Of a stretch of DNA of 64,000 nt, positions 14,455-16,889 are shown piece by piece. The stretch is from Collimonas sp. PA-H2 (lineage in GTDB: Bacteria > Pseudomonadota > Gammaproteobacteria > Burkholderiales > Burkholderiaceae_D), in contig NZ_PDBX01000001.1 in NCBI RefSeq assembly GCF_002564105.1, forward strand, positions 62,001 through 126,000. Reading direction: 5' to 3'. Under the pieces are notes generated by a model. That model was given only the letters and a program-made list of their open reading frames with translations, was not told the DNA's origin and did not search any database. Position 1 is the first letter of the stretch. Each line of letters begins with the position of its first letter. The translations under genes and the position numbers were made by a program.

Positions 14455-14595
14455 ATGTTTACCACCCTGCACCTGACCCCTATCGTTTCACTGATCGCGG
14501 GCGTACTGATCCTGGCCATTCCACGACTGCTGAACTACATCATTGCGCTGTACCTGATCGTCATCGGCCTGATCGGCCTGTTTGGAACGCGCTGA
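14455..14595 (+). CDS. DUF3096-type small membrane protein
   Basis: A 46-residue hydrophobic micro-protein with two TM helices joined by RLLNY: MFTTLHLTPIVSLIAGVLIL ... IIALYLIVIGLIGLFG. This is the pattern of the DUF3096 family of short inner-membrane proteins, whose function is unknown. AAAAGGAA lies six bases before the ATG. A longer in-frame start exists upstream but lacks a ribosome site and would add non-hydrophobic residues. It stands alone between the inverted-repeat element and the leuA leader. Confidence 0.8.
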   Translation: MFTTLHLTPIVSLIAGVLILAIPRLLNYIIALYLIVIGLIGLFGTR

Positions 14596-14678
14596 GCAGT
14601 ACTCCGCAAAGCATCTATTACCGAAATACAATATTCGTGCGGGAAACAGGCTATTTTGGGCCTGGCGCCAACTCGTGC

Positions 14679-14708
14679 TTGACAAGCCCCGACTTCATCT
14701 CATACATT
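14679..14708 (+). promoter_or_regulatory. Promoter of leuA leader region
   Basis: A perfect -35 TTGACA (14679-14684) and -10 TACATT (14703-14708) with an 18-base spacer. Transcription is expected to begin near 14715, the A of the first leader ATG, so the leader peptide may be translated from a leaderless or near-leaderless message. Confidence 0.65.
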
Positions 14709-14714
14709 AAGGCC

Positions 14715-14822
14715 ATGGCTTCCCCACGCATCCAATCCCGTTCCCTACTACAGCATCCTGGCTTACTGCCGGCAATGCTGCTAGTGCCGCTACTAGCGCT
14801 ATCGCTACTACGCGCACTATGA
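14715..14822 (+). CDS. Putative leucine leader peptide 1 (CTA-rich)
   Basis: A 35-codon ORF in which 12 codons specify leucine and nine of them are the rare CTA, concentrated in its last half (MLLVPLLALSLLRAL). A shorter version could start at 14775. A leucine-codon cluster ahead of leuA is the hallmark of transcription attenuation, where scarce charged tRNA-Leu stalls the ribosome; E. coli LeuL uses the same CUA codon. A tetraloop hairpin (CCCCGT/ACGGGG) follows the stop, then an intrinsic-terminator-like stem at 14893-14920. The peptide product itself is presumably without function. Confidence 0.65.
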   Translation: MASPRIQSRSLLQHPGLLPAMLLVPLLALSLLRAL

Positions 14823-14828
14823 TCTCGA

Positions 14829-14920
14829 CCCCGTTCTGACGGGGGCACCCTGGCAGCAGCACCGCCAAACCAAGAAATCACAGTAGTAAAACTGAAATGC
14901 CGACCAGGCGTTTCAATTTT
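14829..14920 (+). promoter_or_regulatory. Attenuator-like hairpins after leader 1
   Basis: The first stem is CCCCGT-tctg-ACGGGG (14829-14844). The second is TGAAATGCC-gacca-GGCGTTTCA (14893-14915), a 9-bp stem with one G-U pair, followed at once by ATTTT. The second has the form of an intrinsic terminator. CCTGG at 14849-14853 could pair with CCAGG in its loop and arm (14904-14908) and so act as an antiterminator. Pairing was read by eye, not computed. Confidence 0.5.
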
Positions 14921-14935
14921 AAAGAGCCCGATTCC

Positions 14936-15061
14936 ATGTACCGCACTCAGCGCCACCCTTCGCTCTCCCGCAGCACCCTCGCCGCCACCGCCGCGGCACG
15001 CATCTGCTCGCTATCGCTATTCCTGCTAAAGCTAGCGATCGGTTGCCTGGCCTCGCGTTGA
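14936..15061 (+). CDS. Putative leucine leader peptide 2
   Basis: A 41-codon ORF with a second leucine cluster (CTA TCG CTA TTC CTG CTA AAG CTA, codons 26-33) and a stop just before a TTTTTT run. The ribosome site (AAAGAG, 9 bases away) is weak. The CTA codons lie in an ATCGCTA/TAGCGAT stem (15013-15019 and 15033-15039), and the next 12 bases pair with 15077-15088, giving mutually exclusive hairpins. It lies 121 bases before leuA. I read it as a second leucine-sensing leader, perhaps gating leuA translation, less surely than leader 1. Confidence 0.5.
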
Positions 15062-15088
15062 TTTTTTCGAGTGGCAGCCAGGCAACCG
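15040..15088 (+). promoter_or_regulatory. Long-range stem in second leuA leader
   Basis: Bases 15040-15051 (CGGTTGCCTGGC) are perfectly complementary to 15077-15088 (GCCAGGCAACCG). The 25-base loop between them contains the leader 2 stop codon and a TTTTTT run. The left arm directly adjoins the smaller stem over the CTA codons, so ribosome position on leader 2 would decide which structure forms. Confidence 0.5.
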
Positions 15089-15182
15089 CGCCGCCACCGA
15101 CCTGTCCGCTTTCCTGTTTCATCGGCACACGTATCTAGCAAACGTATCCAGCACACTTAACCAGCTCCCAGAGAGGCTTCTC

Positions 15183-16889
15183 ATGATGTTGCAAAACCCC
15201 GCTGTCAAATATCGCCCTTTTCCACCCGTCCCGCTGAGCGATCGCACCTGGCCCAATCAAATCATCAGCGCGCCGCCAATCTGGATGAGCACCGATCTGC
15301 GCGACGGCAACCAGGCATTGATCGAACCGATGGACGCCGCGCGCAAGCTGCGTTTCTTCAAATTGCTGGTGAAAATCGGCCTCAAGGAAATCGAAGTCGG
15401 CTTCCCTTCCGGTTCGCAGACCGACTTCGATTTCGTGCGCCAGCTGATCGAAGAAAAGCATATTCCCGACGACGTCACCATCATCGTTTTGACGCAGTCG
15501 CGCGAAGACTTGATACGCCGCACGGTCGATTCGCTCAAGGACGCCAAGCAAGCCATCGTCCACCTGTACAACCCTATCGCACCGGCCTGGCGCCGCATCG
15601 TGTTCGACAAGAGCCGCGATGAAGTCAAGGAAATCGCCGTCTCCGGCACGCGCCTGATCAAGGAGTTGACCGACGCCCGCCCGGAAACCCAGTGGCGCTA
15701 TGAATATTCGCCGGAAACCTTCAGCATGGCAGAACTGGATTTTTCCAAGGAAGTCTGCGACGCCGTGGTCGACGCCTGGCAAGCCACGCCGGCACGCAAA
15801 GTCATCCTCAACCTGCCGACCACGGTCGAGTGCAGTACGCCGAATGTGTTCGCCGACCAGATCGAATGGATGCACCGCAACCTGGCGCGCCGCGACGCCG
15901 CCATCATCAGCGTCCATCCGCATAATGACCGCGGCACCGGCGTCGCCGCCGCCGAGCTGGCCGTGATGGCCGGCGCCGACCGCGTCGAAGGCTGCCTGTT
16001 CGGCAACGGCGAACGCACCGGCAATGTCGACCTGGTGACGCTGGCCTTGAACTTGTATACCCAGGGCGTCAATCCCGGCCTGGACTTCTCCGATATCGAC
16101 GAAGTGCGCCAGTGCGTCGAAGACTGCAACCAGATTCCGGTCCATCCACGCCATCCGTATGTCGGCGACCTGGTGTTTACCGCCTTCTCCGGCTCGCACC
16201 AGGATGCGATCAAGAAGGGTTTCGCCGCACAGAAGGCCGACGCCATCTGGGAAATCCCCTATTTGCCGATCGACCCGGCCGATCTCGGCCGCAGCTATGA
16301 CGCCGTGATCCGCGTCAACAGCCAGTCCGGCAAAGGCGGCATGGCCTATCTGCTGGAACAGGAATACGGCCTGGAGATGCCGCGCCGCCTGCAGATCGAA
16401 TTCAGCCGGGCGATCCAGAAAGCCGCGGATGCGACCGGCAAGGAAATCGCCGCCAGCGACATCTACAACATCTTCAAGCAGGAGTACCTGGACAAGCAGA
16501 CCCCCTACGTCTACCGCGGCCACCGCATGAGCGATGATTTGAGCCCGGCGCAAGCGGTCAAGATTGAAATCGACATCGTCCGCGACGGCCAGGCGCACAC
16601 CAGCAGCGGCCAGGGCAACGGTCCGATCGACGCCTTCGTCAACGCGTTGGGACTGGACATCAAGCTGATGGATTTCCATGAACACGCGATCAGCGCCGGC
16701 GCCGACGCCCAGGCCGCCAGCTATATCGAGCTGCGCCTGAACGACGCTCCTACCGGCTTTGGCGTCGGCATCGACGCCAATACCTTGACCGCCTCGTTCA
16801 AGGCGATCCTGAGCGCGGTCAACCGGCAGATTGAAATCGCCGGCCAGGCTGCCAACCAGGAGATCGGCAGCAGCGCAGCGGCGGCGTAA
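15183..16889 (+). CDS. leuA: 2-isopropylmalate synthase (long type)
   Basis: A 568-residue enzyme condensing acetyl-CoA with 2-oxoisovalerate, the first committed step of leucine synthesis. The HMGL-like TIM barrel opens with [17 protein letters not shown] (metal and substrate residues), contains the metal site HPHNDRGTG near 240 and GNGERTGN near 275, and is followed by the regulatory LeuA dimer domain (about 440-568) that mediates leucine feedback. The length fits the ~560-residue actinobacterial/proteobacterial subfamily. Tandem ATGs at 15183 and 15186 follow AGAGAGG. Control by leucine at the leader RNA is suggested by two CTA-rich ORFs upstream. Confidence 0.95.

Follow-up and report, generated by a model that had tools for sequence, protein, structure and literature searches.

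Leucine synthesis in enterobacteria is controlled by a CUA-rich leader peptide of the leu operon, an arrangement of one leader and an intrinsic terminator that involves no pseudoknot. The family of these attenuators is named as Rfam RF00512 in the excerpted text of PMC3766115. Before actinobacterial leuA lies the LEU element (Seliverstov et al. 2005, PMC1262725), which the sections of that paper used here describe as a leucine leader, a pseudoknot and a base stem, the last formed between the run of leucine codons and the leuA Shine–Dalgarno sequence. Those sections leave the mechanism open, suspect a protein and doubt that the leader is translated; they also report that mutations in the Streptomyces leuA leader had some effect, unlike the expectation under classical attenuation (PMC1262725). 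Streptomyces lividans leuL1 is a leaderless leucine leader (MRFGLLLLSCRGEGL) before leuA, without a typical Rho-independent terminator according to an excerpt of PMC8079986, and a leu leader of C. diphtheriae is listed in the excerpted part of PMC5784534. Among the open-licence PMC papers searched, the LEU element was named only in PMC1262725. No description of tandem leucine leaders for a leucine gene was found among open-licence PMC papers. The tandem leaders of mgtCBR and ermB respond to signals other than leucine, and their genes are not amino acid biosynthetic. Both carry tandem leader ORFs in one 5′ region, as described in extracts on Salmonella mgtCBR (PMC3641672) and on the two leader peptides of ermB (PMC8274638).

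The leuA leader analysed here comes from Collimonas sp. PA-H2 and resembles the LEU element, as far as the excerpts of PMC1262725 describe it, in lying upstream of leuA and in having a leader ORF with a leucine run directly before an H-type pseudoknot. It differs in belonging to the Betaproteobacteria, in using CTA rather than CTT or CTC codons and in having an extra leader, ORF1, upstream; leuL1 of S. lividans, as excerpted from PMC8079986, is by comparison a single leader before leuA in the Actinobacteria. Compared with a leu-type attenuator, the leader rich in cognate codons is present, but an intrinsic terminator alternating with an antiterminator was not found, and the sequence gave no gathering-level match to the covariance model of RF00512 (Leu_leader). 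The new part is the tandem with ORF1; the kind of pseudoknot has already been described before actinobacterial leuA.

Two leucine leaders before leuA

The window, the whole stretch of 64,000 nucleotides that was analysed, belongs to a genome of 5.9 Mb; all features given below are on its forward strand. The gene leuA (15183–16889) encodes a 2-isopropylmalate synthase of the long type (TIGR00970, 788.6 bits against a cut-off of 697.4). Its leader consists, from 5′ to 3′, of a promoter, ORF1, a spacer hairpin, ORF2, a pseudoknot, a C-rich stretch and the Shine–Dalgarno-like AGAGAGG at 15170–15176, the last recognized by eye in the sequence. A small hydrophobic ORF (MFTTLHLTPIVSLIAGVL...) occupies 14455–14595, immediately 5′ of the promoter.

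ORF1 (14715–14822) would encode a peptide of 35 amino acids with nine CTA among its 12 leucine codons, and ORF2 (14936–15061, with an alternative in-frame start at 14897) one of 41 amino acids with four CTA within eight codons (15011–15034, at 15011, 15017, 15026 and 15032). These counts agree with the earlier note, which had proposed two tandem leucine leaders before leuA; both prove to be conserved in relatives. In the 23 non-overlapping, mechanically called ORFs of at least 300 amino acids in the window, CTA accounts for 19 of 1,257 leucine codons (1.5%). When all 36-codon in-frame segments of the 64 kb were ranked by CTA density, ORF1 came top with nine; the next best had four, and the CTA run of ORF2 is one of these runners-up.

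A conserved pseudoknot at the end of ORF2

The last CTA of ORF2 (15032–15034) lies 6 nt 5′ of an H-type pseudoknot that spans 15041–15097. The 5′ arm of its first stem, S1 (15041–15051), is inside ORF2 and pairs with 15077–15087 in the alignment; loop L1 (15052–15070) holds the ORF2 stop codon (15059–15061); and the second stem, S2, joins GTGGC (15071–15075) to GCCAC (15093–15097). Because S2 interleaves with S1, the structure is a pseudoknot. The earlier note had seen a hairpin here, with arms at 15040–15051 and 15077–15088 that are indeed complementary; the stem is real but is only the S1 half of the structure, S2 having been missed. The fold of 15035–15100 has an energy of −33.8 kcal/mol (z −4.1).

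Alignment A2, which comprises 62 distinct sequences with an S1 of 11 bp and an S2 of 5 bp, has 99.3% of cells paired in S1, with double changes at four pairs, and 97.1% paired in S2. Across both stems five pairs show changes on both sides, so that relatives do have the covarying stems for which the earlier note proposed a test, and sliding the stems by one to three columns leaves at most 52% of cells paired. More distant relatives carry double changes in S2: CTGGC/GCCAG in L103, GCGGC/GCCGC in L098 and L099, and GCGAC/GTCGC in L108. A strict test with fixed loops recovered a partner for the 5′ arm of S2 in 81 of 98 distinct elements, where shuffles gave an expectation of 3.8; this test replaced a wide-range version that found 94 of the 98 but with 41 expected by chance. 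Among the 17 misses of the strict test, L098, L099, L108 and L111 have compensatory S2 changes and longer loops, whereas L058, L059, L105 and L106 have no S2 under the wide rule either. Element parsing covered 119 of 120 sequences, L213 being left out. A conserved H-type pseudoknot stands before leuA, and both of its stems carry compensatory changes.

The start of L1 (15052–15056 in the window, and its counterpart in relatives) is partly conserved as CNNGYG, a pattern that pairing does not explain and that may contact S2. Rfam gave no gathering-level match in the window or in any of the 16 loci searched out of the 80 other leuA loci; below that level there were five chance-level matches in the leader.

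Leucine codons and stop of ORF2

A frame with a possible start that stays open through the conserved leucine codon is present, by mechanical call, in all 72 loci that carry the element. In alignment A2 the C and T of the last leucine codon are invariant and its A occurs in at least 90%. This codon is 6 nt ahead of S1 in nearly all loci and 5 nt ahead in one Herbaspirillum clade. The eight codons up to S1 include at least two CTA in 53 of the 72 loci, one in 18 and none in one.

The end of the peptide varies. In 13 of 72 loci, all of one Herbaspirillum clade, the ORF2 stop begins 5 nt before S1 and yet the RNA stem is kept, which argues that the RNA is conserved rather than the peptide end; elsewhere the stop falls 12 nt into the element (32 loci), 18 nt into it (19 loci) or farther downstream (8 loci). 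These 13 loci also rule out, as a main reading, that the peptide end PIGC..A is a nascent-chain arrest motif. In L032, L035 and L036, from Massilia and Herminiimonas-like genomes, the ORF2 frame stays open up to the pseudoknot and through most of it, and ribosomes would therefore need to unfold the structure. Pseudoknots at −1 frameshift sites have a placement comparable to the roughly 6 nt that follow the ORF2 CTA codon; programmed frameshifting was considered, and no slippery heptamer was seen by eye.

Distribution of the element

Among 81 leuA loci (80 others and that of the window), 72 have the pseudoknot element upstream. Of the nine without it, L075–L082 comprise one cyanobacterium, three Aquabacterium and four other betaproteobacterial MAGs; the ninth is L019, labelled Herbaspirillum, in which the MAG contig leaves just 139 nt upstream of leuA. 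Matches to R1 occurred in 24 of 300 genomes of the same order (E ≤ 0.01) and in 87 of 145 of the same family (E ≤ 0.05, 80 of them at E < 1e-7), with stricter filters in searches over 40 genomes, under which weak matches were lost. The gene downstream was leuA for 22 of the 25 matches in the order, the other three being at E 0.001 to 0.008, and for 29 of 29 among the best-scoring new family loci, which were those examined. In the Collimonas genome itself only weak matches (E 0.44 or worse) were found besides the one at leuA.

A survey of other leuA places, covering 89 of 101, found the element in 20: 16 by a loose pseudoknot descriptor and L119, L137, L157 and L161 by CM. The descriptor recovered 70 of the 72 known elements but also matched 10 of 67 leuA-internal controls, for which reason its matches were counted only with the GG..CC and leucine-codon pattern or as CM hits. 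Two of the eight own-family leuA genomes in this survey, L118 (with ORF1) and L188, lack the element.

ORF1 and the ORF2 module occur together in Oxalobacteraceae and in L101, L102, L104, L106, L108 and L111, which are members of other families. In Cupriavidus and Alcaligenaceae the ORF2 module is present and no ORF1 was seen; to judge from the sequence, ORF2 of Alcaligenaceae may itself be leaderless.

ORF1 and its predicted leaderless start

CTA-rich counterparts of ORF1 were found at 43 Oxalobacteraceae loci, counting that of the window, so that the CTA clusters are conserved; these 43 are what remained of 53 rows after ten ORF2s of Cupriavidus and Alcaligenaceae were dropped. A looser rule recognized ORF1 in 25 of 29 further own-family loci, the best-scoring of the family R1 search.

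The predicted, sigma-70-like promoter (14679–14708) consists of TTGACA at 14679–14684, an 18-nt spacer and TACATT at 14703–14708, a 10-of-12 match. By pattern alone it is not significant (one found against 0.6 expected in shuffles); its support comes from conservation across Oxalobacteraceae. TTGACA, an 18-nt spacer, TANNNT and a gap of exactly 6 nt from the −10 box to the ATG recur in 40 of 43 ORF1 leaders of the family, many of which come from close relatives, the −10 box being taken as the best match 3–12 nt 5′ of the ATG. From this 6-nt gap, transcription is predicted to begin at the ATG itself, and ORF1 is thus predicted to be leaderless, a suggestion of the earlier note that the promoter spacing supports at the level of prediction.

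Outside the family, leucine-rich leaders without a pseudoknot precede leuA in other betaproteobacteria and often end in ..GLLLRxAR*; Burkholderia arboris (L210) has such a leucine-rich leader, likewise without a pseudoknot, by eye. ORF1 thus seems to be the older type of leuA leader in betaproteobacteria. At L118, a leuA leader of the same family, a CTA-containing ORF1 is kept with no detectable pseudoknot, perhaps through natural loss.

Resemblance to the LEU element

The spacing of the parts can be compared directly. In Nocardia and Tsukamurella the last leucine codon is followed by 5 nt, an S1 of 10–11 bp, an L1 of 12, an L2 of 0, an S2 of 5 bp and an L3 of 4–5; in the window it is followed by 6 nt, an S1 of 11–12 bp, an L1 of 19, an L2 of 1, an S2 of 5 bp and an L3 of 4–5. 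In other betaproteobacteria L1 is mostly 9–10. An R1 search of four actinobacterial leuA loci (L206–L209) gave no match, and a scan for the LEU geometry matched L206 and L209 but not L207 and L208. When the Nocardia and Tsukamurella leaders were shuffled 100 times, the scan matched 0 and 2 of the shuffled versions. The leuA leaders of Nonomuraea and Microbacterium did not pass the strict scan, a result that says little because a true element, the Cupriavidus positive control L211, did not pass it either; under looser rules Microbacterium (L208) did give a match, to a version with longer loops.

The ORF2 module has the architecture of a LEU element, and its mode of action is probably similar. 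We do not claim full membership, because the base stem was not found in Collimonas and common descent is no more than a possibility.

Spacer hairpin and intrinsic terminators

Between the two ORFs, and ending just 5′ of the AAAGAG of ORF2, lies a hairpin (14887–14921; −14.8 kcal/mol, z −4.9). The earlier note had described its arms (14893–14915) as having a T-rich end and had placed a transcription terminator after ORF1. The fold itself is real, but its T tract has four T only, and the alignment makes it recognizable mainly within Collimonas, with mismatches at some positions and compensatory changes at others; in a mixed group of ten sequences from outside the genus, no conserved structure was found between ORF1 and ORF2.

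Intrinsic terminators are nearly absent from these leaders, so that the proposed terminator finds no support. A scan of 14550–15250 in the window found no site. Among the relatives' leaders, the interval from ORF1 to S1 had a terminator-like site in 2 of 43, and that from S1 to leuA in 1 of 72. For comparison, such a site was found in 13 of 70 leuA leaders then taken as pseudoknot-free, one of which (L161) turned out to carry the pseudoknot; the scan is not fully sensitive, having overlooked a site in L177 that is visible by eye. There is no conserved T run 3′ of S1 or S2.

A classical-looking leuA attenuator is present in four pseudoknot-free betaproteobacterial leaders, L163, L169, L177 and L149, in which a short leucine-rich peptide is followed by a hairpin of the GGCCCG/CGGGCC type and a T run (by eye in L177). 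The peptides contain three to four CTA in L163, L169 and L177 and one in L149.

Pairing of the leucine run with the Shine–Dalgarno sequence

For the pairing of the leucine run with the leuA Shine–Dalgarno sequence, only 9 of 20,000 lineage-swapped permutations reached the observed mean of 16 lineages (34 of 20,000 with wider windows). Most of this signal is due to Achromobacter (−23.3 kcal/mol, z −3.5, three loci), Cupriavidus (−18.1 kcal/mol, z −1.7, 18 loci) and single loci such as L073. It is weaker in Bordetella (z −0.9) and at chance in Collimonas (z 0.1), HerbA, Undibacterium, Massilia and others. Set against the excerpted description of the LEU element, Achromobacter and Cupriavidus have a clear base stem and Bordetella a weaker one, and none is seen in Collimonas. 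One example of the complementarity is TTCCTCGCTA in the ORF2 leucine run with TAGCGAGGAA at the leuA Shine–Dalgarno sequence, from the Achromobacter and Cupriavidus loci L062–L064, L042, L047 and L211 (L211 by eye); in Achromobacter the complementarity extends to the leuA start codon.

In simple folds that ignore pseudoknots, masking by a simulated ribosome raised the accessibility of the Shine–Dalgarno sequence from 0.02 to 0.25 in Achromobacter and from 0.26 to 0.50 in Bordetella, but Collimonas (0.46 before masking, 0.47 after) and Cupriavidus (0.45 before, 0.42 after) showed no gain. The chance-level lineages and these masking folds rule out the pairing as a universal rule.

Proposed mechanism and alternatives

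We consider it rather likely, from the sequence evidence, that the leuA leader is a LEU-type sensor, probably a ribosome-gated pseudoknot, placed behind a second leucine leader. Its first module would be the CTA-rich and probably leaderless leader peptide ORF1, and its second the CTA-rich ORF2, the last part of which extends into an H-type pseudoknot of the LEU type. In the mechanism that we infer, both ORFs would be translated. When charged tRNA-Leu is short, ribosomes that translate ORF2 would stall at its CTA codons, immediately 5′ of S1, leaving the pseudoknot folded and the run of leucine codons covered; when leucine is plentiful, ribosomes would enter or pass S1 and then leave. The state with the stalled ribosome is taken to be the one in which leuA is on. 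Where the leucine run can pair with the leuA Shine–Dalgarno sequence, as in Achromobacter and Cupriavidus, translation of leuA would be freed directly by the stalled ribosome. In Collimonas, where this freeing step is not visible, the output may be translation, Rho or another.

The conservation of the leader makes it reasonable to suppose that leucine is sensed twice. We offer more tentatively, as a doubtful elaboration, a two-stage sensor: a ribosome on the leaderless ORF1 would take a reading as transcription begins, and another, on ORF2, would meet the knot as a mechanical gate whose opening depends on the supply of tRNA-Leu. Compared with a single attenuator, the two readings would make the response sharper or broaden its range. 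We count against the gate the 18 loci with only one CTA up to S1 and the one locus with none, the lack of the element in L118 and L188, the chance-level pairing of the leucine run in Collimonas, the absence of a gain from ribosome masking in Collimonas and Cupriavidus, and the Streptomyces leader mutations and doubts about leader translation in PMC1262725.

The near absence of intrinsic terminators bears on two alternatives in opposite ways. It favours Rho-dependent attenuation, which we think unlikely: Rho would load on the C-rich RNA downstream of ORF1 and of the pseudoknot once ribosomes finish and leave, and a stalled ribosome and folded pseudoknot would block Rho, so that leuA would be transcribed only when leucine is short. 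C exceeds G from S2 to leuA in 69 of 72 loci (C/G 1.92, against 1.13 inside leuA) and after ORF1 in 41 of 43 (C/G 1.53). However, leuA interiors are likewise richer in C than in G in 63 of 72 loci, which makes the C excess weak support, and a ribosome stalled upstream does not in itself cover the RNA downstream. A pair of classical attenuators, each ending transcription at an intrinsic terminator as the earlier note proposed for ORF1, is, by the same near absence, very improbable, given also that no T run is conserved after either stem, even though L149, L163 and L169 do pair a leucine-rich leader with a GGCCCG/CGGGCC hairpin and T run before leuA and Collimonas has its hairpin at 14887–14921 with a short T tract.

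Hardly probable at all is a pseudoknot that binds a protein or small ligand, with the leucine codons incidental. The tight conservation of the RNA, part of L1 included, would suit such a site, and a protein was argued for in the excerpted discussion of the LEU element (PMC1262725). A binding site would nevertheless leave unexplained the nearly fixed distance of the leucine codon and the enrichment of CTA in a genome that hardly uses it, and the leader matches no Rfam family at gathering level, with chance-level matches only below it.

Gating of the pseudoknot by a ribosome is the reading that the excerpts of PMC1262725 doubted for the LEU element, and the covariation of the stems together with the nearly fixed spacing of the leucine codon revives it. 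Now that the LEU architecture has been found in Betaproteobacteria too, where the leuA that follows is of the same long type, its mechanism becomes testable in non-pathogenic strains.
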